In this document: piece after piece, positions 6,639 through 60,957 of the stretch | How the letters are laid out: every line of letters begins with the position of its first letter | How positions within the stretch are numbered: the first letter of the stretch is position 1 | Assembly (NCBI RefSeq): GCF_000194945.1 | Contig: NZ_GL878511.1 | Location: forward strand, 186,001 to 250,000 | Direction of reading: 5' to 3' | Source: Streptococcus sanguinis SK1 = NCTC 7863 | GTDB taxonomy: Bacteria; Bacillota; Bacilli; Lactobacillales; Streptococcaceae | DNA length: 64,000 nucleotides | Made by a program: the position numbers and the translations under genes | Notes under the pieces: generated by a model | Told to the model about the DNA's origin: nothing | The model's database searches: none | What the model saw: the letters and a program-made list of their open reading frames with translations, nothing else

Positions 6639-7988
<1,350 letters not shown>

Positions 7989-8019
7989 CTAGTCGATACA
8001 TCCTATCGGAGGACAAATC

Positions 8020-8505: not shown

Positions 8506-8520
8506 ATGTCAGTATACTCT

Positions 8521-8670
8521 GGCCGTCTCAAGGACATCATGACCAACATCCTTAACAGAGCTAAAACTACCGCTGAAACTTACGGACTTAGCAAAGACTA
8601 TCTGGCTAGTGCTAACATTGCTGCCTTTGAAAACACAGCCAAAGCTATGATTGCCCAAGGTATTGTTTAG
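8521..8670 (+). pseudogene. Duplicated gdhA 3' end (last 49 codons plus stop)
   Basis: This stretch translates in frame to GRLKDIMTN...AMIAQGIV and a stop, matching the C-terminus of GdhA at 7839-7988 over its whole length with no indels. By my hand alignment roughly four fifths of the bases are identical, and most differences are silent. It has no start codon and no upstream coding region, so it is a remnant. The homology begins abruptly at 8519-8521, right after the GNAT gene. A terminator follows it and presumably ended the original gdhA transcript. Confidence 0.93.
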
Positions 8671-8683
8671 AATTTATTTTTTC

Positions 8684-8715
8684 AATCCTCAATCACTCCG
8701 ATTGGGGATTTTTAT
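8684..8715 (+). terminator. Terminator of the gdhA unit
   Basis: AATCCTCAATC pairs with GATTGGGGATT around a 5-nt loop and is followed by a T-run. It now serves the gdhA-GNAT transcript. Confidence 0.8.
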
Positions 8716-8724
8716 GTTGGTCTC

Positions 8725-8754
8725 AAAAAAGCTTACTATTTAAATAGTAAGCTT
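8725..8754 (-). terminator. Terminator of the TetR/MDR operon
   Basis: A perfect palindrome of 26 bases centred at 8741/8742 (AAGCTTACTATT arms) is followed on the minus strand by TTTTTTG. Confidence 0.75.
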
Positions 8755-8766
8755 AAAAATCAAGAT

Positions 8767-18631: not shown

Positions 18632-18675
18632 TATTTTCCCTCCGAAACACTTTATGCTGCTTACATTATAGCAAA

Positions 18676-18703
18676 AAGCAGGCCCTCATAAAAGAACCTG
18701 CTG
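18676..18703 (-). terminator. Terminator after the GNAT gene
   Basis: AGCAGG pairs with CCTGCT across a 14-nt loop on the minus strand, followed by TTTTTGC. Confidence 0.6.
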
Positions 18704-18731
18704 TTATCTCTTCGCTGAAACTTCTAATACC

Positions 18732-19376
18732 CTATTCGATTTTCAAGACATAGGTATGTTCCTTGTAAAGCTCATCAATCTCAAAATGCTCCAAATCTTC
18801 TTTCCTTGAGACAATATAATGTCCTTCTCTTTGATAATAGCCTAAAGGATTTCCTGACTTATCTGTCAGACAGATTATCTGTTTCTTAGTATCAACGCTG
18901 AAAGAAAACGGTCTTTGATCTTTGGGGCGTCCGACAACTAAATAATCTTGACAAATCAGCTTGCCGCCCCACTTCTGATAGAGGTGATTTGCCTGCTCTC
19001 CGTCTCTGGTAAAGATGACCAAGGCCTCAACTTTCTTTTCATGCAGCTGCTCTCGAGCAGTTTGAAAGAGTTGACTGGCTATCCCTTGATTCTGAAAATC
19101 AGGATGGACAGCCAGATTAGCGAAGTAAGCTATCTTTTCTCCCGGATAATATGCATAAGAATGACTTGCTTCTTCGGTGTAAATCCCAATATCTAGAAGC
19201 CCCACAACCTGATCATCTTCCACTGCTATGAGCTCAATCGAATCTTGGTAAGGCTCTTCAGTAAACTCATCCTTGCTGCGGCTCATATCATCAAAGAAAG
19301 GCGAAAAGAGATAACTCAAAGCCTTTGTATAAATCCAACTTTTCTCATAAGTCGAGTCATAGATTTGTATTTTCAT
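18732..19376 (-). CDS. GNAT family N-acetyltransferase
   Basis: A 214-residue protein. The GNAT core lies at about residues 45-145, with motif A FANLAVHPDFQNQGIASQLFQTA (Q/RxxGxA acetyl-CoA loop) near 90-112. A further 60 residues at the C-terminus form a small beta-rich extension (YLVVGRPKDQRPFSFSVD..) not found in minimal GNATs. The substrate is unknown. It begins 10 bases after the mutS2 stop and is probably read from the zapA-cvpA-mutS2 transcript, ending at its own terminator. Confidence 0.85.
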   Translation of the reverse strand: MKIQIYDSTYEKSWIYTKALSYLFSPFFDDMSRSKDEFTEEPYQDSIELIAVEDDQVVGLLDIGIYTEEASHSYAYYPGEKIAYFANLAVHPDFQNQGIASQLFQTAREQLHEKKVEALVIFTRDGEQANHLYQKWGGKLICQDYLVVGRPKDQRPFSFSVDTKKQIICLTDKSGNPLGYYQREGHYIVSRKEDLEHFEIDELYKEHTYVLKIE

Positions 19377-19386
19377 TTCTGGCCTC

Positions 19387-21720
19387 TTACTTAAATATCA
19401 CAATCGTTGCACCGCTGCCGCCAGCATTTTGCGGAGCATAGCCAAAAGACTTAACATGCTTGTTGCGGCGGAGGTATTTTGTCACTCCTTCACGGATGAC
19501 GCCGGTCCCGATACCGTGGATAATATCCACCTGAGCCATGTTATTGAGGAGGGCCTGATCGATAAAGGCATCAAGCTCTTCCATAGCCTCTTCGTAGCGT
19601 TTACCGCGCAAATCCAGCCTGGCTTTCGGTCCAGCAGTATTGGCTCGCTTGACTACATTGACCTGCTTGCGCTTAGGCTGCTGCTCCTTTTCAGCCTTGA
19701 GTAAGTTAAACTCCTGCTCTTCTAGAGTCATCTTGATAAGACCGACCTGAGCTTCCCAACGGCCGTCCTTGAGCTGCTTGACCAAGGTTCCCCGCTGACC
19801 ATAGCTGGTGACTAGAATATCATCTCCCACCTTGGGCGCCCGATTTTTCTTAGCCTGCTTGAGCACCTTATTCTTTGATAAATCAACGGTTTCTGGTGCC
19901 AACTTTTTAAGCTGAGCCTTGGCTTCAATAATCTCATGTGGTTTAAGGCTGGACTTATCATGGAGATTTTTGAGAATGCTCTCACTCTCTGACAAAGCCA
20001 AATCAACGATTTTCTGGGCTTCCAACCGTGCCTTATTGAGCTCGGTTTCCTTTTCTCGGTTAAACTCATTGTAAAGTTTTTTGAGGGCTCGGTTAAATTT
20101 GAGATTTTCCTGCTCCACCTCGCGGATATTATCCAAGCGCTTGCGGCTTTCTAGCGTCTGCTCCTCTAGGCGCTCAATAATCCGATTGACATCACTGTCT
20201 GTGTCGGTCTGCTCTTGGGCATGGCCAACGATAACTTCCGACAAGCCCAAACGCCGAGCGATTTCAAAGGCATTGGAACGGCCAGGCACTCCCTGCATAA
20301 AGCGATAGGTCGGCCTTAAACTATCTGTATCAAACTCCATGCTGGCATTTTCCACCCAGTCCGTCTCAATCCCATAGGCTTTGAGCTCAGGATAGTGGGT
20401 CGTCGCCATTGTTTTAATCTGTCTCAGCCGCAAATCTTCCAAGATAGCAATGGCCAGAGCTGCACCCTCTTGCGGGTCAGTTCCAGCTCCCAGCTCATCC
20501 AGCAGAACCAGACTCTCGCTATCAACTTGCTCTAAAATAGAGACGATATTGGTCATGTGACTGGAGAAAGTTGACAGACTCTGCTCAATGGACTGCTCAT
20601 CACCAATGTCTGCAAAAATCTGACTGAAAATCCCGACGCGGCTCCCCTTGTCCGCCAGAATCGGCAGACCTGACTGGGCCATGATCTGAGCCAAACCCAA
20701 GGTCTTCAGCATGATGGTCTTACCACCGGTATTAGGCCCGGTAATGACAATCTCTGTCAAGTCTGGCCCGAAATGCAAATCATTAGCCACTGCATTTTCA
20801 ATCAGGGGATGGCGGACACTAAGCAGTTGGATATCCTGCTCTTCCGACAGGTCTGGCACCACCGCTCCCGTCTCCTGCATGAAGCGGATCTTGGCACGCA
20901 CTAGGTCCAGATGTCCGATAATCCAAGCATTGTTGGCAATTTCAGCTGCATGGGGACGGAATAGGTCCGATAATTCCTGCAAAATCCGCTGAATTTCATA
21001 ACGCTCGTCCGCTCGACTGCTGGCAATTTCTTCGTTTAGATTGACAACTGCTCTAGGCTCGATATAGACGGTATTACCGCTGGCTGAAATATCGTGAACC
21101 ACACCAGAAATGCGGTTGCGGTAGGTATTTTTTACAGGCAGCACATTGCGGCCATTCCGGCTGGCCACTACCTGATCCGCCAGCATCTCTCCCTTATTTT
21201 TGAGAATCTCTTGCAGAATTTCCCGCACCTGATTTTCATTTTCTTGAATTTTTCGGCGAATGCGGCTCAAACTTTCGCTAGCAAAGCTTTCGATAAAGCC
21301 GCCATCATTCACAGCCTGCAGACTTCCTTGCAGCTTAGGGAAAACAACTAGGTTCTCAAACAGACGGTCCAGCTTTTCCAAGTGCACATTTTCCAAGTCA
21401 TCATAAAAGGACTTGAGCTCCTGAGTCACTGCCAAAACGCGCTTGAGAGCTAAAAACTCCTCAATATTCAAGTCGCTTTCCAGCTCCAACCGCTTGGTCA
21501 AGGCAGTGATATCCTGAGTCGCAGCCAGACTAAAGTGGGGATGCTGCACAAAAATCTGCTGCATATCTCTCATTTCCAGAAAAGCCGAGGCCACTGTCTC
21601 CTTCTTGCTGGTCGGCAAGAGCAGACCCAGCTCCAGCTGCCCCTGCTCGGTCAAAAGATAGGGAGCAAAAAGTTCTTTAATCTTTTTAAATTCTAAGGTT
21701 TCTAAAATTTTTGTGTTCAT
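19387..21720 (-). CDS. mutS2: MutS2 (RqcU) ATPase/nuclease
   Basis: A 777-residue MutS-type ATPase without the mismatch-binding domain. The lever and clamp regions cover about 1-300, then Walker [25 protein letters not shown] near 327 and Walker [21 protein letters not shown] near 405. A long coiled coil spans 510-600, a KOW/SH3-like segment 630-680, and the C-terminal Smr domain ([30 protein letters not shown]) runs from about 700. MutS2 suppresses recombination in some bacteria and in Bacillus splits collided ribosomes for quality control. The order zapA-cvpA-mutS2 is kept from Bacillus (there with polX between), which supports the assignments. Confidence 0.96.
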
Positions 21721-21774
21721 AATTTTCTTTTCTAGTAAAAAAGAACCCAGCTAGCAGGCCAACTGAGTCGTCTT

Positions 21775-22326
21775 TTATCCGATAACTTGATTCACCCAGA
21801 GATCTTTGAGGATATTGGATGTGATAGGGGTATACTTGACAATAAAGCGAATCATAAAGCTGCTGTTGAGCCGCTCCTGAACCATCTCCATCGGCACCGT
21901 CGCTAAAATAGTCAGGCACATTCCCAAAACAAAAATAGAGATGCAAACAGCGATGGCTCCGCTGGTCACATTGTACCATTTGGTATCCAGCTTATTGGGG
22001 TAGGGAATCAGATTCGCAAAAATCCCGAAAAAGCGCCCAAGGATGTAGACAGCTGTAAAAATAATAAGATAGGCCAAACCAGCATAAAAAACCTGATCCA
22101 AGTGAAAAAGTTGGGAGCTAGGGAAAAAGTAGGTCGAAGAGCCCTGAGTCGCGCTGGCATAAGGCACCCAAAGACTGATAAACTTGGCCAAGCTCTTATA
22201 AAAAGCTCCAGCTACCAGCATGGAAACCATGGTTGCAGCAGCATAATAGCCCTGCAGAACAATACCACGCGAGTAGCCAATATAAAAGCTCCAGGCCAAT
22301 ATTAGTAAAATAATAATAGAAAGCAT
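21775..22326 (-). CDS. CvpA family membrane protein
   Basis: A 183-residue protein with four predicted transmembrane helices and the family's N-terminal IILLILAWSFYIGYSRGIVLQGYY followed by a Gly-rich AGAFY turn. A YLIIFTAVYILGRFFG helix and a conserved C-terminal IVKYTPI region follow. CvpA was named for colicin V production in E. coli; its role in Firmicutes is not established. It lies 10 bases after zapA and 54 bases before mutS2, in the conserved Bacillus-like order. Confidence 0.88.
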   Translation of the reverse strand: MLSIIILLILAWSFYIGYSRGIVLQGYYAAATMVSMLVAGAFYKSLAKFISLWVPYASATQGSSTYFFPSSQLFHLDQVFYAGLAYLIIFTAVYILGRFFGIFANLIPYPNKLDTKWYNVTSGAIAVCISIFVLGMCLTILATVPMEMVQERLNSSFMIRFIVKYTPITSNILKDLWVNQVIG

Positions 22327-22336
22327 TATTTCTCCT

Positions 22337-22627
22337 CTATTTACCCGACTTTTCTCTCAAATCACTGAGCATTTTGTGACGAAAATCTTCTAGTTCTTTT
22401 TCCTTGTCGTCAAACTCAATCTCGCGGCTGAGCTGGGTAGACAGGCTATTGACAGCCAGCAAAATCGCCAGGACTTCATCATCTGCCGCAGGCATCTGCT
22501 CTTTGATAGCCTTGTATTTTTCCTTTGCTACCCGTTCTACTTCTTCCATAAAGAGATTATCGTGTTCTGTTGTTAGAGTTAAGGTCTTGTTTCCAAATGT
22601 AAATTTATATCGATTCAAATTTGCCAT
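22337..22627 (-). CDS. zapA: ZapA-like cell division protein
   Basis: A 96-residue protein. The N-terminal RYKFTFGNKTLTLTTEHDNLFMEEVERVAKEKY matches the ZapA head domain, and the C-terminal half is a helical coiled coil, as in ZapA, which bundles FtsZ at the division site. Sequence identity alone is weak, but its position between rnhC and cvpA-mutS2 is the same as that of zapA in Bacillus subtilis. It is first in its operon, behind a good promoter. Confidence 0.75.
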   Translation of the reverse strand: MANLNRYKFTFGNKTLTLTTEHDNLFMEEVERVAKEKYKAIKEQMPAADDEVLAILLAVNSLSTQLSREIEFDDKEKELEDFRHKMLSDLREKSGK

Positions 22628-22643
22628 AAAATCACCTCATTGT

Positions 22644-22672
22644 ATTATATCAAAAAAGAAGCCCTTTGTCAG
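22644..22672 (-). promoter_or_regulatory. zapA-cvpA-mutS2 promoter
   Basis: CTGACA (22667-22672), 17-bp spacer, TATAAT (22644-22649) on the minus strand, about 16 bp before the zapA ATG, with GAGGTGA as ribosome binding site. Confidence 0.8.
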
Positions 22673-22742
22673 TTATAAAAACACTTGGAACTAGACAGGG
22701 ACTTTCTTTTTCATCTTTTTTGACATTGCAAGCAGCGGTGCT

Positions 22743-22768
22743 ATCCTACAAAATTTTTGTAGGATTTT
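22743..22768. terminator. Terminator-like hairpin between divergent zapA and rnhC
   Basis: ATCCTACAAA pairs perfectly with TTTGTAGGAT around a 3-nt loop, followed by TTTTC on the plus strand. It stands only 35 bp before the rnhC -10 box, between two divergent genes, where no obvious transcript needs ending. Confidence 0.5.
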
Positions 22769-22802
22769 CAATCTTATGACTTTCGACTTTTCCTTTTTAT
22801 GG

Positions 22803-22808
22803 TACAAT
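22803..22808 (+). promoter_or_regulatory. rnhC extended -10 box, very close to the start codon
   Basis: TATGGTACAAT (extended -10, TACAAT at 22803-22808) ends only 7 bases before the rnhC ATG at 22816. Normal spacing would place the transcription start at or within two bases of the ATG. Confidence 0.6.
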
Positions 22809-22815
22809 AGGGGGT

Positions 22816-23706
22816 ATGGAAAGTATCACACTCAGTCCCAAACAGCAAGAAATTCAGGCTTTTGTTGAGAAATATCAGAGCAAGCTGGCTCCCAGCAAGA
22901 ACCCTCATATTCAATATTTCTTCCGGCTGGATCAGGCGACGGTCAGTGTCTTTAGCTCCGGAAAAGTTCTCTTTCAAGGGGCAAAAGCTGCTCACTACGC
23001 TGGCTTTTTTGGCCATCAAGCAGGCAAATCCAGTTATAGTCCTGCTTCTCAGAATTTTGCCCTCATTGGGACAGATGAGGTCGGCAACGGCTCCTACTTT
23101 GGAGGTCTAGCCGTCGTAGCTTCTTTCGTTACTCCAGACCAGCACGACTTTCTGAGAAAACTGGGCGTTGGTGATTCTAAAACCTTGAACGATAGCAAGA
23201 TTCGCCAACTGGCACCGGTCTTGAAAGAAAAAATTGCTCATCAAGCTCTGCTCCTATCGCCAGAGAAGTACAACGAAGTCATCGCTTCTGGCTACAATGC
23301 CGTCTCTGTCAAGGTAGCTCTGCACAATCAAGCTATCTACCTACTGCTGCAGAAAGGCATCAATCCCGAAAAAATCGTCATCGATGCCTTTACCAGCCAG
23401 CAAAACTATAATAAATACCTAAAGCAGGAAAAAAATCATTTTCCAAATCCGGTAAGTCTGATTGAAAAGGCTGAAGGAAAGTTCCTAGCTGTTGCGGTCA
23501 GCTCTATTATCGCTCGTGACCTCTTTCTGGAAAATCTAGAAAATCTCAGTCAAGAGTTAGGCTATACCCTGCCTAGCGGAGCCGGAAGCAAGAGCGATCA
23601 CGTTGCCAGCCAGATTCTTCAAGCCTATGGAATGGCCGGTCTGCAGCATTCTGCTAAACTCCACTTTAAAAATACTGAAAAAGCACAAAAACTTTTAGAA
23701 AGGTAA
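22816..23706 (+). CDS. rnhC: Ribonuclease HIII
   Basis: A 296-residue cytosolic nuclease that cleaves RNA in RNA-DNA hybrids. The N-terminal 80 residues form the TBP-like substrate-binding domain typical of HIII. The catalytic domain starts at [20 protein letters not shown] (Asp and Glu of the active site), followed by VGDSKTL, VIDAF and [14 protein letters not shown]. The start at 22816 keeps the family's MxSITLxP N-terminus, yet it lies just 7 bases after the -10 box. lepB follows 3 bases after the stop. The divergent rnhC/zapA arrangement replaces the Bacillus head-to-tail one. Confidence 0.95.
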
Positions 23707-23709
23707 CCT

Positions 23710-24339
23710 ATGAAAAAATCAAATACTGCCGTTGTCATTCTCAAAGAATGGGGGCTCTTTATCATCTTTATCTCTATCATTATCCTATCACGGCTCTATC
23801 TCTGGTCCCCTGTAAAGGTAGATGGCCACTCTATGGACCCTACGCTGGCCAATGGGGAATATCTACTTGTGCTTAAATATCAGTCAATTGACCGATTTGA
23901 TATCGTTGTCGCCACTGAGACAGATAATGACGGAACGACCAAGGAGATTGTCAAGCGGGTTATCGGTATGCCGGGTGATACTATTCAGTATGAAAATGAT
24001 ACTCTTTACATCAACGGCAAAAAAACAGACGAGCCTTACCTGACAGACTACATCAAAAAATTCAAAGAAGACAAGCTCCAATCCACTTATACTGGGGATG
24101 ATTATGATGACAATGGTGTGTTTTTCAGAAAACTCGCAGCTCAGGCTCAAGCCTTCACTGTTGATAGTGAAGGCAGCCCTGTCTTCACCATCAAGCTTCT
24201 GGATGATGAATACCTGCTTCTGGGTGACGACCGGATTGTTTCCAAGGATAGTCGCCAAGTCGGCACCTTCCAAAAAGAACAAATCCAGGGCGAAGCTAAG
24301 TTCCGCTTCTGGCCGCTGCTGCCTTTTAAGACCTATTAA
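23710..24339 (+). CDS. lepB: Signal peptidase I
   Basis: A 209-residue membrane protease that removes signal peptides from secreted proteins. One N-terminal transmembrane helix (about 12-30) anchors it, with the catalytic domain outside. The nucleophile Ser41 lies in GHSMDPT, and the general base Lys82 in IVKRVIGMPGD. Box E (LLLGDDRIVSKDSR) holds the conserved GDDR..SxDSR. Length and a single helix are typical for streptococcal Lep. It is cotranscribed with rnhC (3-base gap). Confidence 0.95.
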   Translation: MKKSNTAVVILKEWGLFIIFISIIILSRLYLWSPVKVDGHSMDPTLANGEYLLVLKYQSIDRFDIVVATETDNDGTTKEIVKRVIGMPGDTIQYENDTLYINGKKTDEPYLTDYIKKFKEDKLQSTYTGDDYDDNGVFFRKLAAQAQAFTVDSEGSPVFTIKLLDDEYLLLGDDRIVSKDSRQVGTFQKEQIQGEAKFRFWPLLPFKTY

Positions 24340-24345
24340 GCATAT

Positions 24346-24378
24346 CGAACTCAGTTGAACGTCAACTGGGTTCGTTTT
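24346..24378 (+). terminator. Terminator after lepB
   Basis: CGAACTCAGTTGA pairs with TCAACTGGGTTCG around a 3-nt loop, followed by TTTT. Confidence 0.8.
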
Positions 24379-24398
24379 AAAAGAAGAACCTATAAACT

Positions 24399-26762
24399 AT
24401 GGAATTTTACTTTTCAGGAACGATTGAACGCATTATTTTTGAAAATCCCAGCAACTTTTTCCGCATCCTGCTCTTAGATATTGAGAATACAGATGCTGAG
24501 GATTTTGAAGATTTTGAAATCATTGTCACCGGCTCCATGGCAGATGTTATGGAAGGCGAAGACTACAGCTTCTGGGGCAGTCTCGTCCAGCACCCCAAAT
24601 ATGGCCAGCAACTTAAAATTTCTCGCTATGAGCGAGCCAAACCCAGTAGCAAAGGCCTAGTAAAATACTTCTCTAGTGACCATTTCAAGGGAATCGGAGT
24701 CAAGACTGCTCAAAAAATCGTCCAACTCTACGGAGAAGATACCGAGGACACCATTGACAAGATTTTAGCAGATCCGGAAAAGCTAACCCAGATAAACGGC
24801 TTAGCAGCTAAGAACCGCGAGGCCTTTGTCGCCAAGCTCAGACTCAACTACGGAACGGAGATGGTACTAGCCAAGCTGGCAGCCTACGGCATTCCCAATA
24901 AGCTAGCTTTTCAAATCCAGGATACCTACAAGGAAGAAACGCTGGATATTGTCGAAAAATATCCCTATCAGCTAGTAGAGGATATTCAGGGAATCGGCTT
25001 TAAAATTGCTGACCATCTGGCAGAAGAGCTGGGCATCCAAAGTGATGCCCCTGAGCGTTTTCGGGCTGGCCTTGTCCATACCTTGCTGACCCAGTCCATG
25101 GAGCGGGGAGATACCTATGTCGAAGCTCGTGATTTACTAGAGCATACCATCGAGCTCTTAGAAAGCTCACGTCAAGTGGAGCTGAACCCTAGTCTAGTCG
25201 CTGATGAGCTGGCCCATCTGATTGAGGAAGATAAGGTCCAAAATGTAGAGACCAAGATCTTTGAAAACAGCCTATTTTTTGCTGAAGAAGGGATTAAGAG
25301 CAATCTGGTCCGTCTACTGGAAAAAGGAGAGCAAGACTGCTTTGACGCAGATAACATTACTGCGGCTATCCAGCAAGTGGAGGAAAGCTCCGGCATCTCC
25401 TATGACAGTATCCAAAAAGAAGCCATCCGTCAGGCTATCAATCAGAAGGTCTTTATTCTAACCGGCGGACCGGGTACTGGAAAAACTACCGTTATCAACT
25501 GTATCATCGCAGTCTACGCCCAACTTCGTGGTTTGGATCTGCGAAAGGTCAATGATCTGCCTATTCTGCTAGCGGCTCCCACTGGACGTGCTGCTCGTCG
25601 CATGAACGAATTGACCGGTCTTCCTAGCGCCACTATCCACCGCCACTTGGGGATGACTGGAGATGATGACACCAGTCATTTGGATGATTATCTGGATGCT
25701 GATTTTATCATTGTGGATGAATTTTCCATGGTGGATACTTGGTTGGCTAATCAGCTCCTCAGCAATATCTCCTCTCAGACCAAACTCTTGATTGTCGGAG
25801 ATGCCGACCAGCTGCCCTCTGTCAGTCCGGGTCAGGTTCTGGCAGATTTGCTGCAGATACCGACTATTCCACAGACCAAGCTGGAAACCATCTATCGGCA
25901 GAGCGAAGAGTCTACAATCGTCACACTGGCTAGCCAGATTCAGAAGGGCATTCTACCAGCAGATTTTACAGACAAAAAAGCGGACCGCTCATATTTTGAA
26001 GCTAGAAATGAGCATATCCCACCTATGATTGAAAAAATCGCTAGCGCTGCCATTCGCAGCGGTATCCCAGCTCAAGATGTTCAGGTATTAGCACCTATGT
26101 ATCGGGGGCCAGCCGGTATCGACCAGATTAACAATCTCATGCAAAATCTCATCAATCCTGTCGAGAAAGAGGAATTGACCTTTGAAGCTCCCGACTGCCA
26201 GTACCGCCAGGGCGACCGGGTCATTCATCTGGTCAACGATGCCGAAAGCAATGTCTTTAACGGCGATCTGGGCTATATCACCGACCTCTTGCCTGGCAAA
26301 TACACCGACTCCAAGCAGGACGAGCTGACCATTGACTTTGATGGCAATGAACTTGTTTATCAGCGCAGCGAGTGGTACAAGATTCGCCTGGCCTACGCCA
26401 TGAGCATTCACAAGTCTCAGGGCAGTGAATTTCCGGTAGTTATTTTGCCCATCACCAAGAGCAGTCACCGGATGCTGCAGCGCAACCTCATCTACACTGC
26501 TATCACCCGCGCCAAGAGCAAGTTGATCTTACTTGGGGAAAAAGTAGCCTTTGACTATGCCGTCAAAAACACCGGTACCGCCCGCAAAACCTATCTCATC
26601 GAGCGCTTTGGCGACTTTCCGCAAGCTGAGAGTAATATTCACAATACTGTGGATAAAATGAAAGCGCCTGTGGAAAACTATGTCCTAACTGAGGAAAACT
26701 TCCAGAAAATTGACCCTATGATTGGGATAAGAGAAGAAGATATAAAGGGAATTTTTAAGTAA
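24399..26762 (+). CDS. recD2: RecD2 helicase
   Basis: A 787-residue SF1B 5'-3' DNA helicase of the RecD2 type, not part of a RecBCD complex. The N-terminal OB-like domain is followed by helix-hairpin-helix repeats (GIGVKTAQKIV, INGLAAKNREAFV, IQGIGFKIADHLAEELGI at about 95-205). The helicase core has Walker A GGPGTGKTTVI near 354, DEFSMVD (motif II) near 440, GDADQLPSVSPG (motif III) and the C-terminal YAMSIHKSQGSEF and YTAITRAKSKL motifs. It acts in replication-fork repair. The gene's last ~20 codons recur, diverged, at 28004-28063. Confidence 0.95.
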   Translation: MEFYFSGTIERIIFENPSNFFRILLLDIENTDAEDFEDFEIIVTGSMADVMEGEDYSFWGSLVQHPKYGQQLKISRYERAKPSSKGLVKYFSSDHFKGIGVKTAQKIVQLYGEDTEDTIDKILADPEKLTQINGLAAKNREAFVAKLRLNYGTEMVLAKLAAYGIPNKLAFQIQDTYKEETLDIVEKYPYQLVEDIQGIGFKIADHLAEELGIQSDAPERFRAGLVHTLLTQSMERGDTYVEARDLLEHTIELLESSRQVELNPSLVADELAHLIEEDKVQNVETKIFENSLFFAEEGIKSNLVRLLEKGEQDCFDADNITAAIQQVEESSGISYDSIQKEAIRQAINQKVFILTGGPGTGKTTVINCIIAVYAQLRGLDLRKVNDLPILLAAPTGRAARRMNELTGLPSATIHRHLGMTGDDDTSHLDDYLDADFIIVDEFSMVDTWLANQLLSNISSQTKLLIVGDADQLPSVSPGQVLADLLQIPTIPQTKLETIYRQSEESTIVTLASQIQKGILPADFTDKKADRSYFEARNEHIPPMIEKIASAAIRSGIPAQDVQVLAPMYRGPAGIDQINNLMQNLINPVEKEELTFEAPDCQYRQGDRVIHLVNDAESNVFNGDLGYITDLLPGKYTDSKQDELTIDFDGNELVYQRSEWYKIRLAYAMSIHKSQGSEFPVVILPITKSSHRMLQRNLIYTAITRAKSKLILLGEKVAFDYAVKNTGTARKTYLIERFGDFPQAESNIHNTVDKMKAPVENYVLTEENFQKIDPMIGIREEDIKGIFK

Positions 26763-26765
26763 GCC

Positions 26766-26794
26766 TTGACTCCCTTCTTTGCTCTGTGTATAAT
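26766..26794 (+). promoter_or_regulatory. Promoter of the gene at 26856
   Basis: TTGACT (26766-26771), 17-bp spacer, TATAAT (26789-26794). AAAGGAG stands before the ATG. It begins only three bases after the recD2 stop codon. Confidence 0.8.
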
Positions 26795-26855
26795 GCTAAA
26801 ATGTGGCTATACGACCAGACAAAACAACAATTAACTTTCTTCAAAGGAGATATTA

Positions 26856-27800
26856 ATGAAATACAATAAATATGCCTCTCTAATAAAATGGGTGCTTGTA
26901 GGATGCTGTCTCATTTTATTTGGTACCCGTTCATCAACAAGAATTAAGGATATCAGTGTGGAAACCTTGCGAAAAGAAGGAAAAATTCTTTCTGCAAAAA
27001 TCTCTGACACCTCTTACAGCCAAGCAATACAAATTACTCATATTGATGGACCGGTTGCTGAGTTAAAAGAAGAGCATGACTCAACCTATTTCTACAAAGT
27101 ATCTTATATAGATAAAAATGGTAGGAAAAGCGATATTGGCCTGCGCAATGATTCTTCAACTAGCCGCTTCGTAGATGAACTAGAAAAAGCGAATACTTTA
27201 GGAGGAGAGCCAAAATGGTTGATTGCCTCAGTACACTCAGCTTCAGATATTCCTGATTACGCTAAAATCATGAAATCGTATCTATTTAATGATGAAAATA
27301 ACCAACAACTGAAATACTACATCACTCTCTCTGATGACAAAGAATTCCAAAAAGGTGGAACAACTTCCTTCACTTTCTTCACCTATATTGCTATATTCTG
27401 CATTTTGATCGGGTTCATTCGTTATTACTTAAACCATAAAAGATTGAATGATTTTTTCAAACTCTATCCCGAGTTGAATGAAACGCTGGATCAGATTGAA
27501 AACAATGGTGGTTATGTTGACCCAGATATTCGTGTCTTCTTTTACAAGAATCATCTGGTCAGTTACAAATCTAGCTTTAAAACATGTGACATACATGACG
27601 CGCTAACAATTTATCATCATAGCAATTCATTCATGATTTCTATCTTTCCCATCATCAGAAAAAATGAGATTCGGGTTGTCCTTTCTGATGGCAACGAAGA
27701 GAAACTGCCTCTAAGACATCAAAACGTTTCTAAAACAGATCTTGCTTTAACTCGTTTAAAAAATCAAATCCATGACAAATTTCCAAATATTGAATTATAA
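26856..27800 (+). CDS. Unidentified membrane protein, two predicted helices
   Basis: A 314-residue protein of no family I recognise. It has an N-terminal helix (about 10-25), an outer domain of about 140 residues with alternating polar strands (EGKILSAKISDTSYS.., YFYKVSYIDKNGRKS), a second helix at about 170-188 (FTFFTYIAIFCILIGFI), and a cytosolic C-terminal part of about 120 residues containing RVFFYKNHLVSYKSSFKTCDIHDALTI. The last part resembles the PH-like domain layout of some membrane proteins, but only by impression. It has its own promoter and terminator. It lies between intact recD2 and remnants of tetR and recD2 and is probably acquired DNA. Confidence 0.8.
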   Translation: MKYNKYASLIKWVLVGCCLILFGTRSSTRIKDISVETLRKEGKILSAKISDTSYSQAIQITHIDGPVAELKEEHDSTYFYKVSYIDKNGRKSDIGLRNDSSTSRFVDELEKANTLGGEPKWLIASVHSASDIPDYAKIMKSYLFNDENNQQLKYYITLSDDKEFQKGGTTSFTFFTYIAIFCILIGFIRYYLNHKRLNDFFKLYPELNETLDQIENNGGYVDPDIRVFFYKNHLVSYKSSFKTCDIHDALTIYHHSNSFMISIFPIIRKNEIRVVLSDGNEEKLPLRHQNVSKTDLALTRLKNQIHDKFPNIEL

Positions 27801-27828
27801 AGAGGACAGTTTGCTGTCCTCTTTATAT
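27800..27828 (+). terminator. Terminator after the gene at 26856
   Basis: AAAGAGGACAG pairs with CTGTCCTCTTT around a short loop. The T-run is partly provided by the right arm. Confidence 0.7.
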
Positions 27829-27875
27829 TAACTTTCTACAATTGAAGTTGGAAAATTCGGTGTGCCAATCATCGC

Positions 27876-27995
27876 TTAGCTTCGTTTTAAGTATGTCAAA
27901 GTCTGCTCCATCAGCTCGTCACTAAGAATATCAATGCCAATGGATTCCAGCATAAAGCGGAGAAAGCGGAGACGCTCAGCCTGCTTTTCAAAACT
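27876..27995 (-). pseudogene. C-terminal remnant of a second tetR gene
   Basis: On the minus strand this reads EKQAERLRFLRFMLESIGID and on to ILSDEL..., ending at TAA 27876-27878. It aligns without gaps to the C-terminus of the intact TetR at 28115 (RLPERFHFLQFMMTSVGLDI), about 60 percent identical over 25 residues by hand. It has no N-terminal part: the homology stops near 27995, where a recD2 fragment on the other strand begins. It is therefore the truncated end of a related tetR from another allele. Confidence 0.85.
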
Positions 27996-28000
27996 TTTCT

Positions 28001-28063
28001 CTGAAAATCGACCCCCTAATCGGCCTGACCGAGGAAGATATCCACAGTATATTCAGCACATAA
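28001..28063 (+). pseudogene. Duplicated recD2 3' end
   Basis: In frame this reads LKIDPLIGLTEEDIHSIFST and stop (TAA 28061-28063), matching the RecD2 C-terminus KIDPMIGIREEDIKGIFK. Only about 20 codons remain. They lie right before the bidirectional terminator and the intact tetR, which is the order expected for the original recD2-terminator-tetR locus. Confidence 0.85.
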
Positions 28064-28065
28064 AT

Positions 28066-28117
28066 AAAAAGGCTGGGACAGAATTAAATTTTTTAGTTCT
28101 GTCCCAGCCTTTTTTTA
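28066..28117. terminator. Bidirectional terminator between the recD2 remnant and tetR
   Basis: An 18-bp perfect stem (AAAAAGGCTGGGACAGAA and its complement) closes a loop of about 13 bases and is bounded by A- and T-runs, so it can work on both strands. Confidence 0.9.
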
Positions 28118-28753
28118 TGTCTTATTTTTCTGGCTAAAGAGCTGCAGGAGCTCGTCAGTAAAGATATCCAGACCGACCGAGGTCATCATAAACTGCAGAA
28201 AGTGGAAGCGTTCCGGCAGTCTTTCGGGCTCACTTTCAAAAACGGTCCCATGCATCCAAAAATTCACCAGCAGCAGAAAAACTTCTGCAGCCTGGTCCGG
28301 ACACTGGGTCTGAAGGGAGCCATCTGCCATCCCTTTTTTGATAATGTCACTGACCAGAGGGGCGCCTATCCGCAGATTGTCCCGCATCATGGTCAAAATA
28401 AAACCTGCATCCTTCTCATACTCACCCACAATGCCGTCCGTAGCTCGGGCTGTCTGACTTTCCAGATTAGACTTGAGGATGGTCTGCAGCTGCTCTCTGC
28501 CAGTCAGATTTTCCGTAGCCTTGAGCCACTGCTTCATCTCTTCTTCCATCAGCTCCTGCCGGCTCCTAATCACCGCAAAGACAATCTCATCTTTTGACTT
28601 GAAATGATGATAGATAGCCCCCTTGGAGATGCCCGCCGTCTGAGCAATATCCTGCATACTGGTCTTTTCGGACCCCTTTTGGATAAAGAGCTGGGTTGCT
28701 GTATTTAAAATTTTTTCTCTCATGGCCTGGGATTTGTCTTTTCGCTGCGCCAT
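28115..28753 (-). CDS. TetR family transcriptional regulator
   Basis: A 212-residue regulator with the DNA-binding domain at residues 8-60 (ILNTATQLFIQKGSEKTSMQDIAQTAGISKGAIYHHFKSKDEI). The ligand domain is of the type seen in TetR_C/YcdC-like multidrug regulators. It lies 75 bases after two CPBP-family genes on the same strand, with its own weak -10 (TAGAAT) in the gap. Related inverted repeats stand at the promoters of the CPBP pair and of the 108-residue membrane protein gene, making them candidate targets. The C-terminal 25 residues have a diverged copy at 27876-27995. Confidence 0.9.
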   Translation of the reverse strand: MAQRKDKSQAMREKILNTATQLFIQKGSEKTSMQDIAQTAGISKGAIYHHFKSKDEIVFAVIRSRQELMEEEMKQWLKATENLTGREQLQTILKSNLESQTARATDGIVGEYEKDAGFILTMMRDNLRIGAPLVSDIIKKGMADGSLQTQCPDQAAEVFLLLVNFWMHGTVFESEPERLPERFHFLQFMMTSVGLDIFTDELLQLFSQKNKT

Positions 28754-28828
28754 TCTGTTCCCCTTTGTTTCTAGTATAGCTTTATTCTACCAAAAAAGCC
28801 GGAGAAATACAAAATCATAAAAATATCT

Positions 28829-29536
28829 TTAAGCCTTGTCTTGCTGATCCCTTTGATACCAAAGATAGATACTGTAAGCCGCCATCAAGATATAGCCTAG
28901 GAAAAAGAGGGGATTTTCCGTCCCCTTGCCCAGGAAAATGCCTTCACCAATGGTATTGATGGCCCCGTGGAAAAGAACACAGTAAAGGATGGACTGACTG
29001 ACCTTGTAAAGAGCCGCCAGCCAGAAACGGGCGAGCAGGCAGGCGGCAGTAAAGAAGAGGGGCAGATGCCAGACAGCCCAGATTAACCCAGTTGTTACAG
29101 TTGCTAAGGGAAAGGGCAGGATCTTCTCCAGACTTGGCTGCAGGAAGCCCTGCCAGCCAATCTCTTCATTGCCGCCTGTCAGAAGAGTCGTCATGAGAAA
29201 AAGCAGAGCAATCCTGAGGGGGCTAAAACCAGGCAGGAGCGGACTCCAAAAGACTATGGAAAGGGTATAAAGAATTGTCAAAATCAAGAGATGGACCCAA
29301 GTCCTTTTTCGGGCCGATCCGATAGAAGCCAAGAGCTCCTTGAACGATTTTCCTAAGACCAGTTTGGCTCCAATGGCCGGGCCAAAAACACCAGCGATGG
29401 TTAGGACCTGGGAAATAATAGGAATCCTCAGGAAAGCCGAAGCCAGCCAGGCAGACCAGCTGATACCAAAGGTCCAAAGCAGAAACATTAGAATTTGCTT
29501 AACAGATGAGGAATCTTTATAGTTTCTAGCTTGCAT
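28829..29536 (-). CDS. CPBP family intramembrane protein with altered motif 1
   Basis: A 235-residue protein with about seven helices. CPBP (Abi) motifs are seen: NEEIGWQGFLQPSLE as motif 1, WAVWHLPLFF as motif 2 and FHGAINT as motif 3. The usual EExxxR of motif 1 reads EEIGWQ here, so the arginine is replaced by glutamine while the catalytic glutamates and histidines remain. Family members are membrane metalloproteases acting, for example, on prenylated proteins or in bacteriocin self-immunity. Its start overlaps the end of the paralogous gene upstream by 11 bases. AAGGAGTT supports the ATG at 29534-29536. Confidence 0.85.
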   Translation of the reverse strand: MQARNYKDSSSVKQILMFLLWTFGISWSAWLASAFLRIPIISQVLTIAGVFGPAIGAKLVLGKSFKELLASIGSARKRTWVHLLILTILYTLSIVFWSPLLPGFSPLRIALLFLMTTLLTGGNEEIGWQGFLQPSLEKILPFPLATVTTGLIWAVWHLPLFFTAACLLARFWLAALYKVSQSILYCVLFHGAINTIGEGIFLGKGTENPLFFLGYILMAAYSIYLWYQRDQQDKA

Positions 29537-30320
29537 CTTTCTGAACTCCTTTCCGGTTGCCCTTCCAATACCACCAGCCGACCAGCAGGGCGGTCATGAC
29601 CAGATTAGCAGCCTGGAAGCTGAGATACCTTCCGCCATTTGTAGCACTGCCGACAATCGTCGCCTGAGCAAAGTTAATGCAGCCGTGAAAGACCATGCAG
29701 GCAAAGACAGAGGCCGTCTGCTTGTAGAGAACCGCCTGACAGAAACAGAGCAAGATACCAAAGGAGAGATAGAAGGGCAAAGAAATCTGACTTTGACTCG
29801 TTCCCGGAATCAGCCAGAGGGGCAGATGCCAGGCCACCCAGACCAGAGCCGTGATGACAGTTGCCAGAGGGAAGGAGAATTTTTTCTCCAGAGCCGGCTG
29901 CAGGAGGCCCCGCCAGCCCAGCTCTTCATTCCCGCCCCCAGCAAAGGTGACAAAGGTACAGCCCAGAGGAAACATCAGAATGGCATTGAGCGGCGGTAAT
30001 ACAGGATTGGCGATAAAAAGGGTCAAAACCCGAACCAGACAGAAGACCAGCATGTAAATCCACCAGCCCTTAGCATGAGAAAAGATAAAGTCCAGCATCT
30101 TCTTAGGATGAGAAATTTTGAGGCTGATAAAAGTTCCCAAGGTCGGTCCGAAGCCCCCGATGAAATTGAGAGCAAAGCCCAAAGGATCAGCCCCGCTGGT
30201 CAGCTTCAGGGCGGTTAAAATATACTGAAGCAGCCAGGATCCCCAGGTAATGCCAAAAGTCCAGGCCAGAAAGGGCAGGATATGCCTTGTCTCTGGCTCT
30301 ACATGTGTTTGTGTGTTCAT
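29526..30320 (-). CDS. CPBP family intramembrane metalloprotease
   Basis: A 264-residue membrane protein, paralogous to the next gene. All CPBP motifs are intact: NEELGWRGLLQPALEKKF (EExxxR), WVAWHLPLWL (FxxxH-like) and FHGCINFAQA (HxxxN). It probably acts as a membrane-embedded protease; substrates are unknown. The start at 30318-30320 is taken because AAGGAGTT lies seven bases upstream, leaving the six upstream codons unused. It heads a unit of two CPBP genes and perhaps tetR. TATAAT at 30458-30463 with an inverted repeat just downstream suggests repressor control. Confidence 0.88.
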   Translation of the reverse strand: MNTQTHVEPETRHILPFLAWTFGITWGSWLLQYILTALKLTSGADPLGFALNFIGGFGPTLGTFISLKISHPKKMLDFIFSHAKGWWIYMLVFCLVRVLTLFIANPVLPPLNAILMFPLGCTFVTFAGGGNEELGWRGLLQPALEKKFSFPLATVITALVWVAWHLPLWLIPGTSQSQISLPFYLSFGILLCFCQAVLYKQTASVFACMVFHGCINFAQATIVGSATNGGRYLSFQAANLVMTALLVGWWYWKGNRKGVQKDAS

Positions 30321-30437
30321 ACGATAACTCCTTATCAAATGTAGAATAGTGAAAAGTCATCCGAAAACTGGTCAAAAGCATCCTTTACTTTCAGTCTTTC
30401 AGATGATTGCCTGTTTTGAAACGCAGATTTTTAAAAT

Positions 30438-30463
30438 CCGACCATTCGGTTTGTTTTATTATA
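30438..30463 (-). promoter_or_regulatory. CPBP operon promoter (-10) with inverted-repeat operator
   Basis: TATAAT (30458-30463, minus) is followed 8 bp downstream by CCGA-CCAT-TCGG (30438-30449), an inverted repeat that resembles the one at 30976-30993. The -35 is weak (TTTGGC-like). Confidence 0.6.
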
Positions 30464-30628
30464 AAAAATAAAGACCTGCGCCAAATAGAAAACATAGTCT
30501 TTTAGTCCTTGCCTAAAATAAAAAGCAAAGATAGACTAAATGATGCTAAAAGCTACGCCAGCACCGTCTAGCTGCTTTTAGTTTCTAAGTTGTCCTGACT
30601 CTGATGCTTAAAACAGGTCATCTCTCTG

Positions 30629-30955
30629 CTACTTGCTCCTTTCTTGATTTTGCAATCGCCGGATATGCCAGAGATTGGAGGCAAGACTCAGACCCCCTAC
30701 TGCCATAATACCCAGTCCTCGCCAAGGGCTAAAGACAGAAGTCAGCAAGCCACCAGCAAGGACAGCATATCCAGCTTTGACTCCCCACTTAGAATAGCGT
30801 ATGCCATTCTCACCCTGTGTTATCTTTTCTAGCCACACCTTACGTTTTTCTGCCTGCTGCTGCAAAAACTCTTTCTGACCTTCCCGCTGTCGATCCAGCT
30901 CCTGATTCAACTTGAGGATGTGCTCGCTTGTTTTTTCTACTACAGATTTCTTCAT
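30629..30955 (-). CDS. Small membrane protein, coiled coil plus two helices
   Basis: A 108-residue protein. Residues 1-50 form a charged helical coiled coil (HILKLNQELDRQREGQKEFLQQQAEK). Two short transmembrane helices (about 60-75 and 80-97) follow, joined by SPWRGLG, with a basic tail. No family is recognised. It has its own promoter (TGGACA, 17 bp, TATACT) and, between promoter and gene, an inverted repeat shared with the CPBP promoter, so the three genes may form one small regulon. AAAGGAG precedes the ATG. Confidence 0.7.
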   Translation of the reverse strand: MKKSVVEKTSEHILKLNQELDRQREGQKEFLQQQAEKRKVWLEKITQGENGIRYSKWGVKAGYAVLAGGLLTSVFSPWRGLGIMAVGGLSLASNLWHIRRLQNQERSK

Positions 30956-30975
30956 TTCTGCTCCTTTCTTTTTAA

Positions 30976-31038
30976 AAACCGACCGGACGGTTTTTTATTT
31001 TATAGACACAGTATAACAGACACAGAAAACTTTGTCCA
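30976..31038 (-). promoter_or_regulatory. Promoter and operator of the gene at 30955
   Basis: TGGACA (31033-31038), 17-bp spacer, TATACT (31010-31015) on the minus strand. About 17 bp downstream lies AAACCG-ACCGGA-CGGTTT (30976-30993, plus strand), an inverted repeat with 6-bp arms. It has the same CCGAcC...CGG core as the site at 30438. Confidence 0.65.
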
Positions 31039-31167
31039 GTATTTTTTCAAAAAAGATTATTTTTAGTCAATGAAAATCATCAGACAACTTAGAAGCTCGT
31101 CACAAGCAACTCTCTCATACTAAAAGCTATATCTAAAAAAGCCCGGTAACGAACCAAGCTTTTATCT

Positions 31168-32232
31168 TTATTCAAACCCCGTCACTGTCAGTCCTAGCAG
31201 TCGGATACCTCGTGGTTGTTCTTCCAAGCTATCGTATATCTCATGCGCAGTTCGCTCGATTTGCTCCTTGTCTCGAGTGGCTAGATTCAAACTTTTCCTT
31301 TTAGTCAAGGTGGAGAAATCGGCATAGCGGATTTTCAGAACGATGGTTCGTCCTTTCTTATCATGCTTAGTCAAGCTATTTTCTACCTTCTGCGCCAGCA
31401 AGGTCAGCTCTTTCTTGATATCCTCCTCACTATAGAGCAGTTTGGCATAGGTCCGCTCTTTCCCAATCGACTTACGGATGCGATTGGATTTGACCGGACT
31501 ATTGCTGATGCCACGCGCTTTCCGGTAGAGATCAAAACCAAAGCGGCCAAACTTATCAATTAAAGTCATTTCCGGTATCTTGAGTAGATCTGCACCAGTA
31601 TAAACTCCCATTTCATGCAGTTTTTCAACGCCCTTCTTACCAACTCCATGAAACTTGGCAATGTCCATAGGCGCCAGAAAGGCCTCAGCCTCTTCGGGTA
31701 GAATAACAGTCAGACCATGAGGCTTCTCATAGTCACTGGCAATCTTGGCCAGAAACTTATTATAAGAAACGCCTGCCGAAGCTGTCAGATGGAGTTCATT
31801 CCAGATATCGTGCTGAATCAGCTTGGCTATTTTGACTGCGGATTTAATCTCTAGCTTGTTTTCCGTTACATCCAGATAAGCCTCGTCGATACTCATTGGC
31901 TCAATCAAGTCCGTATAGCGTTTGAAAATCTCTCGGATCTGCAAGCCGACCGCCTGATATTTTTCGTAATTCCCCGAGATAAAAATGCCCTGCGGGCAAC
32001 GCTCATAGGCTTCCTTGGAACTCATAGCCGAATGAACTCCGAACTTTCTGGCCTCATAATTGCAGGTGGAGACGACACCACGACCGCCAGTCAAGCGTGG
32101 GTCGCTGCCGATGATGACCGGATGCCCCTTTAACTTAGGATTATCCCGCTCTTCCACCGAAGCGAAAAAAGCGTCCATATCAATGTGGATAATCTTCCGA
32201 GATGTATCGTTAATCAGTGGAAAAATCAGCAT
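31168..32232 (-). CDS. dinB: DNA polymerase IV (Y family)
   Basis: A 354-residue translesion polymerase. Catalytic motifs are intact: [12 protein letters not shown] near residue 16 and [10 protein letters not shown] near 115. The palm [14 protein letters not shown], the helix-hairpin-helix thumb ([17 protein letters not shown]) and the little-finger domain follow. It copies past DNA lesions with low fidelity. There is no C-terminal beta-clamp pentapeptide that I can identify with certainty. It faces away from pflB, a neighbour arrangement also found in the pneumococcus. The start at 32230-32232 (MLIFPLIND) follows AAGGAGG. Confidence 0.95.
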
Positions 32233-32521
32233 GCCTCCTCCTTTCTCCTACCATAAATTTCAGCTTATGAGCTTTCACAAAGTCGGCCCTTTTTGCTCAA
32301 ATAAATCTGAAACAGTTTTTTGTTCTTGTAAAAAGTATTTTAAAAGTAAGATTCTTTGTCAGTAATTTTTATATGACATTTTAATTACTTTTATTATAAC
32401 TTTTTTACCCATTTTTCCAAAATATTTGAAAAGAGTTGTGTTTTTCAAATCTATAGTACACATCCGCGACTTTTTACTTTCTGTATTATAAAAGAAAGTC
32501 TTTCTTTCTGCCGAAAATGGT

Positions 32522-32550
32522 TTGTGAAACCGATTACCGTATGATATACT
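32522..32550 (+). promoter_or_regulatory. pflB promoter with overlapping cre site
   Basis: TTGTGA (32522-32527), 17-bp spacer, TATACT (32545-32550). TGAAACCGATTACC at 32525-32538 matches the CcpA cre consensus TGWAANCGNTNWCA at 13 of 14 positions and overlaps the -35. TTTGTGAAA also resembles a Rex half-site. The rest of 32233-32600 shows AT-rich DNA with no gene. Confidence 0.7.
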
Positions 32551-32600
32551 TTACTTATAAATGTAACAGTTTATGTTGCTAGAATAAAGAGGAAAATCAA

Positions 32601-34916
32601 ATGGTTGTAAAAACAGTTGTTGAAGCTCAAGATATTTTTGACAAAGCTTGGGAAGGCTTCAAAGGTGAAGACTGGAAAGAGAAAGCAAGTGTTTCTCGCT
32701 TCGTTCAAGCTAACTACACACCTTATGATGGAGATGAAAGCTTCTTGGCAGGTCCTACTGAGCGCTCACTCCACATCAAGAAAATCGTAGAAGAAACAAA
32801 AGCTCACTACGAAGAAACTCGTTTCCCAATGGACACTCGTCCAGCATCTATCGCTGATATCGACGCTGGTTACATTGACAAGGACAACGAACTGATTTAC
32901 GGTATCCAAAATGACGAACTCTTCAAATTGAACTTCATGCCAAAAGGCGGTATCCGCATGGCTGAAACTACTTTGAAAGAAAATGGATACGAACCAGATC
33001 CTGCTGTTCATGAAATCTTTACTAAGTATGTTACAACAGTAAACGACGGTATCTTCCGTGCTTACACTTCTAACATCCGCCGTGCTCGTCACGCCCACAC
33101 TGTAACTGGTCTTCCAGATGCTTACTCACGCGGACGTATCATCGGGGTTTACGCACGTCTTGCTCTTTATGGAGCTGACTACCTCATGGCTGAAAAAGTT
33201 CGCGACTGGAATGGTTTGACTGATATTGACGAAGAAACAATCCGTCTGCGCGAAGAAATCAACCTGCAATACCAAGCACTTGGTGAAGTTGTAAAACTTG
33301 GTGACCTTTACGGAGTTGATGTTCGCCGTCCTGCTTTTGACGTTAAAGAAGCTATCCAATGGACTAACATCGCCTTCATGGCTGTCTGCCGTGTTATCAA
33401 CGGTGCTGCTACTTCTCTTGGACGTGTGCCTATCGTTCTTGACATCTATGCTGAACGTGACTTGGCTCGCGGTACTTACACTGAATCAGAAATCCAAGAA
33501 TTTGTTGATGATTTCGTTATGAAACTTCGTACAGTGAAGTTTGCTCGTACGAAAGCTTACGACCAACTTTACTCTGGTGACCCAACCTTCATCACTACTT
33601 CTATGGCAGGTATGGGTAACGACGGCCGTCACCGTGTTACAAAGATGGACTACCGTTTCCTTAACACACTTGACAACATTGGTAACTCTCCAGAGCCAAA
33701 CTTGACCGTTCTCTGGACTGACAAACTTCCATACTCATTCCGTCGCTACTGTATGCACATGAGCCACAAGCACTCTTCTATCCAATACGAAGGTGTAACA
33801 ACAATGGCTAGAGATGGTTACGGTGAAATGAGCTGTATCTCATGTTGTGTATCTCCACTTGACCCTGAAAATGAAGAACAACGCCACAACATCCAATACT
33901 TCGGTGCTCGTGTAAACGTTCTGAAAGCCCTTCTGACAGGTCTCAATGGCGGTTACGACGATGTTCATAAAGACTACAAAGTATTTGACATCGAGCCTAT
34001 CCGGGACGAAGTTCTTGACTTCGAATCAGTTAAAGCGAACTTTGAAAAATCTCTGGACTGGTTGACCGACACTTACGTAGATGCTTTGAACATCATCCAC
34101 TACATGACTGACAAGTACAACTACGAAGCTGTTCAAATGGCCTTCTTGCCAACTTACCAACGTGCTAACATGGGATTCGGTATCTGTGGATTTGCCAACA
34201 CTGTTGATACCTTGTCTGCTATCAAGTATGCAACTGTTAAGCCAATCCGCGACGAAAACGGCTATATCTACGATTACGAAACAATCGGTGATTACCCACG
34301 TTGGGGTGAAGATGATCCTCGTTCAAACGAACTGGCTGAATGGTTGGTTGAAGCTTACACAACTCGTCTGCGCAGCCACAAACTGTATAAGAATGCAGAA
34401 GCTACTGTGTCTCTTCTGACTATCACATCTAACGTTGCTTACTCTAAACAAACTGGTAACTCACCAGTTCACAAAGGAGTTTACCTCAACGAAGATGGCA
34501 GCGTGAACTTGTCTAAATTGGAATTCTTCTCACCAGGTGCTAACCCATCTAACAAGGCAAAAGGTGGCTGGTTGCAAAACCTTAACTCTCTTGCTAGCTT
34601 GGACTTCAGTTACGCAGCTGACGGTATCTCATTGACAACTCAAGTATCACCTCGTGCGCTTGGTAAGACTCACGACGAACAAGTAGACAACTTAGTTACT
34701 ATCCTGGATGGCTACTTCGAAAACGGTGGTCAGCACGTTAACTTGAACGTTATGGACTTGAAGGATGTTTACGACAAGATTATGTCTGGTGAAGACGTTA
34801 TCGTTCGTATCTCAGGTTACTGTGTAAATACTAAGTACCTCACTCCAGAGCAAAAAACTGAATTGACTCAACGTGTCTTCCACGAAGTGCTCTCTATGGA
34901 CGATGCTTTGAGCTAA
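32601..34916 (+). CDS. pflB: Pyruvate formate-lyase
   Basis: A 771-residue glycyl-radical enzyme converting pyruvate and CoA to acetyl-CoA and formate, central to mixed-acid fermentation. The catalytic Cys pair is seen in [14 protein letters not shown] near residue 415. The radical glycine lies in [19 protein letters not shown] near the C-terminus. The codon use is strongly biased to the codons of highly expressed genes (GTT, GGT, AAC, CGT), unlike most neighbours. The promoter overlaps a cre site, which fits carbon catabolite control. It needs the activating enzyme PflA, which is not in this window. An intrinsic terminator follows. Confidence 0.97.
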
Positions 34917-60950: not shown

Positions 60951-60957
60951 AAGAGAA

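Follow-up and report, generated by a model that had tools for sequence, protein, structure and literature searches.

How did a second 3′ end of recD2 and the C-terminal end of a second tetR come to lie back to back between the intact copies of both genes in Streptococcus sanguinis SK1? The locus occupies positions 24,399 to 28,753 of a 64,000-nt stretch of contig NZ_GL878511.1, hereafter the window. An earlier reading of the letters alone (the sequence-only reading) had proposed that a donor segment consisting of recD2, an accessory gene, and part of tetR was joined, inside tetR, to the end of the resident recD2. Our comparison bears out the core of that proposal, as each half of the scar matches a different group of genomes, and we consider it likely that the donor segment was joined at recD2 by homology-facilitated illegitimate recombination (HFIR) during natural transformation, with the scar arising once and then spreading.

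Our comparison covers 284 genomes of the genus, with recD2 detected in every one (284/284) and the regions around it fetched and compared for 20. The window's own genome (G000, Streptococcus, 2.28 Mb) and G185–G195 make up a set of 12 S. sanguinis-type genomes, a label that we infer for ten of them; their pairwise core differences are 4.2–6.2% over three core loci. Four of the 12 carry the scar (G000, G188, G189, and G194), and the other eight, which are without the insert, are here called residents. A search of the available literature found no paper naming both Streptococcus sanguinis and recD2. The locus is laid out as follows.

24399–26762, plus strand: intact recD2, an open reading frame (ORF) with Pfam domains HHH_RecD2, AAA_30, and UvrD_C_2
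24399–26716, plus strand: recD2 body of S. sanguinis-type sequence, 95–97% protein identity to the eight residents
26717–26762, plus strand: foreign 3′ end of recD2, the last 46 nt with the stop; left heterology border after GACCC (26712–26716)
26766–26794, plus strand: promoter-like site of the membrane gene, TTGACT-17-TATAAT, 11/12 consensus matches
26856–27800, plus strand: foreign membrane-protein gene, 314 aa, with close relatives in G188, G189, G194, and G021
27796–27827, plus strand: terminator hairpin of the membrane gene, 14-pair stem
27828–27885: 58-nt spacer from the terminator to the start of the tetR similarity, containing the stop of the tetR remnant
27876–28000, minus strand: C-terminal remnant of a foreign tetR, of which 27886–28000 matches G026 and G025 (110/115)
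28001–28004: the join, CTGA, common to foreign tetR and resident recD2; these are the leftmost bases of a 21-bp patch in which 17/21 agree
28005–28063 (28001–28063 with CTGA), plus strand: resident recD2 3′ remnant, 63/63 to G185, G186, G192, and G195
28066–28114: resident terminator hairpin between recD2 and tetR, 23-nt arms, 96% complementary; in the same place in the eight aligned residents
28115–28753, minus strand: intact resident tetR regulator (TetR_N, 3.4e-19), 91–98% to the eight residents and 93% to G046

The order recD2, membrane gene, remnants, terminator, intact tetR had been read correctly from the letters, with both remnants at the places then given. Identical structure is present in the four separate assemblies with the scar, including one made up of a single contig, and this argues against misassembly.

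The two remnants, both located by tblastn, have different affinities. The first is indeed a second tetR end on the minus strand, with its stop at 27876–27878, and its peptide matches the C-terminus of the intact tetR (44% over residues 169–204, E 1.5e-5) as well as the tetR beside recD2 in G026 (97.5%) and G025 (92.5%). At the DNA level (identities for both remnants and for the 46-nt recD2 end are ungapped), 27886–28000 agrees with the G026 and G025 tetR at 110/115 positions versus 63/115 for the adjoining intact tetR. Both of these genomes lie outside the S. sanguinis group and have tetR directly after recD2, with no membrane gene. The second remnant (28001–28063, plus strand) ends in a stop and is resident-type in both DNA and peptide, as the latter is 71% identical to the end of the intact recD2 and 100% identical to seven resident recD2 ends. 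Among nine resident-order genomes (the eight residents and G046), its DNA is found unchanged in four (63/63 in G185, G186, G192, and G195) and at 62, 62, 62, 61, and 56 of 63 positions in the other five. The resident order that the sequence-only reading proposed to look for, recD2 followed by a tetR 91–98% identical to that of the window, is present in 8/8 insert-free S. sanguinis-type genomes and in G046. When 27790–28010 was searched against the genus, with two candidates scored per genome, six genomes matched at E ≤ 4.4e-51 (the four scar genomes, G025, and G026), while the other listed matches were short (E ≥ 2e-8). The structure is thus more than chance.

Two smaller observations concern this segment. 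No match of E below 1e-4 is listed for 27828–27885 outside the four scar genomes, and these 58 nt are presumably donor sequence. The G194 copy of the tetR remnant lacks 9 nt, which is what decay of a fragment would produce.

The remnants meet without a gap, antisense tetR being fused to sense recD2. At this point, the donor-like G026 sequence reads CTTTTCTCTGAGAATTGACCCACTAACC and the resident G195 recD2 reads ATTTCCTGAAAATCGACCCCCTAATC, and the scar changes from the first type to the second within CTGA (28001–28004), a few bases from the 27995–28003 that had been predicted. The short homology anticipated there is also present: from CTGA onward, the two parents agree in 17/21 bases. When the G026 interval from recD2 to the start of tetR was compared with the final 600 nt of recD2 in G195 (400,200 ungapped 21-mer pairs), this patch alone scored highest (rank 1), and the next five pairs were shifts of it. 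It is also the best match in 11/12 combinations of two donors with six residents. The join is therefore readable almost to the base, although the exact switch point could be a few bases off, depending on the true donor allele.

The left border is of a different kind, with recD2 running unbroken into its foreign 3′ end at a homologous recD2 position. The last 46 nt match G026 and G022 at 36/46 positions, and G025 and G021 at 35/46, while the eight residents match at only 25–26/46; the four scar genomes have 45–46/46 in common. By these identities, the end of the intact recD2 is foreign as well. The left crossover, or later trimming of it, is close to the recD2 end, as only these last 46 nt are visibly foreign. 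The sequence upstream in G194 does not show a longer donor tract: its last 93 nt ahead of the border are most similar to G046 (82/93), followed by G187 (78/93) and G025 (76/93). Further upstream, DNA identity of the recD2 body to the residents is mostly 90–99% by segment, with the exception of the segment 450–600 nt from the end, which is only 81–85% identical to residents and nearest to G046 (90%), so the body itself is a mosaic.

That both visible borders fall at the same recD2 motif, with no net loss of DNA seen, would also be expected if a direct repeat in the donor, GARAATTGAYCC, present in its recD2 end and in tetR, had recombined to form a circle that then inserted by a single crossover at the same motif in the resident recD2. 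Circles that integrate in this manner, duplicating part of the target, have been described for E. coli conjugation (PMC3240628). We regard this route as unlikely here, for it needs two rare events instead of one, and the left border may have been trimmed and need not mark the first crossover. In addition, DNA taken up in transformation is linear and single-stranded.

The rebuilding of recD2 by the insert could likewise suggest a mobile cassette with the recD2 3′ end as its specific insertion site, which would replace the end of the gene in the way of some integrative elements, and the recD2-dinB interval does vary between genomes. However, between 26763 and the join, there is one gene-length ORF, which has no recombinase domain, and the only other listed ORF of at least 60 aa is a 67-aa frame across the join. 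The tetR remnant is a piece of an ordinary neighbor gene of other species, and the four copies have one join and the same kind of resident remnant, even in G189, whose upstream recD2 is of the type of G193, with its own end only 56/63 like the remnant in the window. A cassette of this kind is therefore highly improbable.

Returning to HFIR, the complete donor order may be pieced together from two halves: G021 has recD2 and the membrane gene, followed by dinB with no tetR, and G026 and G025 have recD2 followed by tetR. The G021 match includes the intergenic region between recD2 and the membrane gene (80/93 conserved) and stops inside the terminator hairpin, beyond which the sequences diverge. 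In the sequence of events that we infer, a DNA fragment from a related Streptococcus with recD2, the membrane gene, and an antisense tetR would have reached the inside of an S. sanguinis cell. Natural transformation is the most likely route, and the species is naturally competent. The donor recD2 end would have recombined with the resident recD2 by homology, and the interior of the donor tetR would have paired, by chance similarity (17/21, with the switch in CTGA), with the last part of the resident recD2. The product would be an intact recD2 whose final 46 nt are foreign and a membrane gene with its promoter-like site and terminator, followed by 63 nt from the end of the original recD2 and by the original terminator and tetR. 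Ordinary homologous recombination in the flanking genes would later have carried the scar between S. sanguinis backgrounds. The locus shows a gain of ~1.3 kb and no visible net loss of resident DNA, since the match happened to fall in the recD2 end itself and recD2 end, terminator, and tetR were all kept.

The identical join in 4/12 S. sanguinis-type genomes raises the question of whether it was inherited or passed between lineages. A core tree of 11,881 columns, taken from three loci outside the window, does not unite the scar genomes in one clade: their distribution takes 3 changes, no fewer than shuffled labels would give (232/500 label shuffles are as low), and G189 groups with the resident G193 as its sister (support 100/100). 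Holding the scar genomes together lowers the log-likelihood by 92.4 (p-AU 0.00225). For the same six pairs of scar genomes, the p-distance of the insert is 1.2–2.9% versus 4.7–5.5% for the core. Synonymous divergence (dS) follows the same pattern, with 0.026–0.053 in the membrane gene versus 0.13–0.20 in rnhC, 0.07–0.36 in lepB, 0.20–0.25 in the first 1,650 nt of recD2, and 0.085–0.153 in pfl. The membrane gene is lower than these four flanking genes in 24/24 pair-by-gene comparisons, the narrowest gap being that to lepB in G000–G188 (0.047 vs. 0.068). The insert is thus younger than its flanking sequences and has been transferred between backgrounds. Taken with the shared join and the lack of a scar clade, the low divergence of the insert points to a single origin and subsequent spread among S. 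sanguinis by homologous recombination.

The same tree places the four scar genomes in one larger group with three residents (branch support 80/99), an arrangement that would suit a scar ancestral in S. sanguinis, or formed by internal duplication, with the resident order arising by loss; local loss is possible, and G193 could be a case. We find this very unlikely in light of the 24/24 dS comparisons, the different species groups to which the remnants belong, and the uninterrupted order in G046 and 8/8 other S. sanguinis-type genomes.

The pair G189 and G193 also bears on how the left border reached its present position. Although 4.2% apart in the core, the scar genome G189 and the resident G193 are identical over 3,072 nt ending exactly at the left border, and past the join, the first 200 nt show 7.1% difference. 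Further patches of close similarity (0–1.5% difference per 200 nt) lie 4.8–5.0 kb upstream and 2.2–2.6 and 4.6–5.8 kb downstream, and thus, the two genomes have exchanged, or inherited, more than the 3,072-nt tract. The small foreign part of recD2 can reflect either a crossover very near the gene end or later trimming by resident alleles. In the latter case, the border of a foreign insert would stop later recombination, and resident alleles would strip the donor flank down to the last unpairable stretch. This would explain both the presence of the 46-nt foreign end in four genomes with different upstream alleles and the ending of the G189/G193 identity exactly at the border. The variation in upstream recD2 alleles among the four scar genomes, together with the G189/G193 tract, favors trimming but is not proof, and we hold the border-stop explanation to be quite possible, if slightly short of an even chance.

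The gene gained in this way belongs to a family found across the genus. A protein search matches the membrane protein in 63/284 genomes, with close relatives only in G188, G189, and G194 (96–97%) and G021 (84%), whose copy is interrupted by a stop (codon 201). Matches in the remaining 58 of the 63 genomes are to distant family members, of which 17 were aligned and are 19–25% identical to it. The promoter-like site lies directly after the recD2 stop, and the gene also has its own terminator, which makes it a self-contained unit, although promoter-like sites occur in the stretch at the level of shuffled sequence (5 found, 4.9 expected). Pfam gave three weak rows for the protein, none above its cut-off, and NCBIfam none at E ≤ 0.01. 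The structure model is moderate (pLDDT 79, pTM 0.51), with an N-terminal helix (7–28), a strand-rich middle, a long helix (161–203), and a strand-rich C-terminal domain, a layout that may correspond to a small membrane protein in which two helices link a domain on the outer side and another on the inner side. No PDB entry matches the model at E ≤ 0.001, and TM-scores by query length are ≤ 0.21 among the 50 matches listed. Among the four scar genomes, dN/dS of the gene is 0.26–0.64, which suggests constraint that is weak at most; its dN (0.011–0.023) is above that of recD2 despite the lower dS.

Several points weigh against HFIR followed by spread. The complete donor order recD2-membrane gene-tetR, for which the sequence-only reading proposed a search and whose absence was, by its own account, to count as a refutation, was found in none of the 284 genomes, whether by protein or by remnant DNA. 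Nor did it appear in a contig scan with two short peptide patterns from the four-protein alignment, which returned 2 loci, S. sanguinis BCC04 and BCC31 (G188 and G189), and missed the places in G194 and G021, so the exhaustiveness of the scan is not established. Only 46 nt of recD2 are visibly foreign, and a long homologous anchor is not seen. For G025 combined with G190, the two best matches listed do not include the join patch. The absence of net loss is itself unlike laboratory HFIR events, in which resident DNA of about the same length is generally lost (PMC3240628). The core tree is built from three loci in a recombining species, with two of its nine inner branches open. Finally, the Competence and DNA_processg_A families, which we take to be ComEC and DprA, are represented in the genome, but of 14 control genomes, 10 and 11, respectively, also match, E. 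coli among them. Controls such as Corynebacterium and E. coli are not known as competent, and the presence of the two families therefore says little.

With respect to known systems, a 2002 paper by Prudhomme reportedly treats the mechanism of HFIR in S. pneumoniae. HFIR in naturally competent bacteria, including S. pneumoniae, attaches one side of the incoming DNA by homology and the other by a few shared bases, as at this locus. In laboratory work, most joins have 3–10 bp of micro-homology and ~1 kb is gained (PMC3240628); the exact join here (4 bp) is within this range. Unlike those events from laboratory crosses, however, this join lies inside a longer imperfect match (17/21), and the scar is an inherited allele. 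Merodiploids of S. pneumoniae formed by alternative pairing are similar in that donor DNA pairs at an additional, “wrong” site, with a duplicated piece as the result. They depend on repeats that the chromosome already contains (incomplete IS861 copies), and the tandem duplications measure ~100 to 900 kb (PMC3784515), whereas here, the duplication amounts to 63 nt on either side of a foreign gene, and no direct repeat of at least 20 nt is listed at the borders (18000–34000), although a duplication of that type would be bounded by long repeats. The dimorphic loci of E. coli, S. aureus, and S. pyogenes share with this locus a small variable segment in conserved surroundings, and homology-assisted illegitimate recombination has been proposed for them (PMC2884548). 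Theirs is a whole-alignment description, with 62 to 73% of loci under 500 bp (PMC2884548), while here, the join and the two halves, donor and resident, can each be pointed out.

Elsewhere in the window, the sequence-only reading had called the recD2 scar the second of its kind. This is only partly borne out: the recD2 scar is real, but the other place that we found, where a second copy of the C-terminus of ORF 6642–7985 (55%) lies at 8389–8667 and adjoins a tetR-like ORF (8770–9411), is found in 12/12 S. sanguinis-type genomes and is thus older or of other origin. Within 6642–9411, sequence to ~8661–8672 matches all 12, and the remainder (to 9460) matches only G000 and G192. Behind the intact tetR are two CPBP-type membrane protease genes (28829–30338), whose counterparts vary in number and completeness among the fetched genomes. 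The recD2-dinB interval is variable across species (fetched regions L063–L082), from ~230 nt or less in G004, G020, and G076 to ~5.3 kb in G022 and G023, and includes tetR-type genes in G025 and G026. A tandem pair of adjoining ORFs of ~350 aa, 60% identical, is located at 59720–62033.

We view the recD2 scar as a natural and unusually well-resolved case of a known process and not as a new kind of process. The locus shows that a complete foreign gene can be gained without a visible mobile element while its neighbors are left whole, and that such an insertion can travel through the species. With a recognizable donor half, resident half, join, and spread, it makes the later fate of HFIR events testable.

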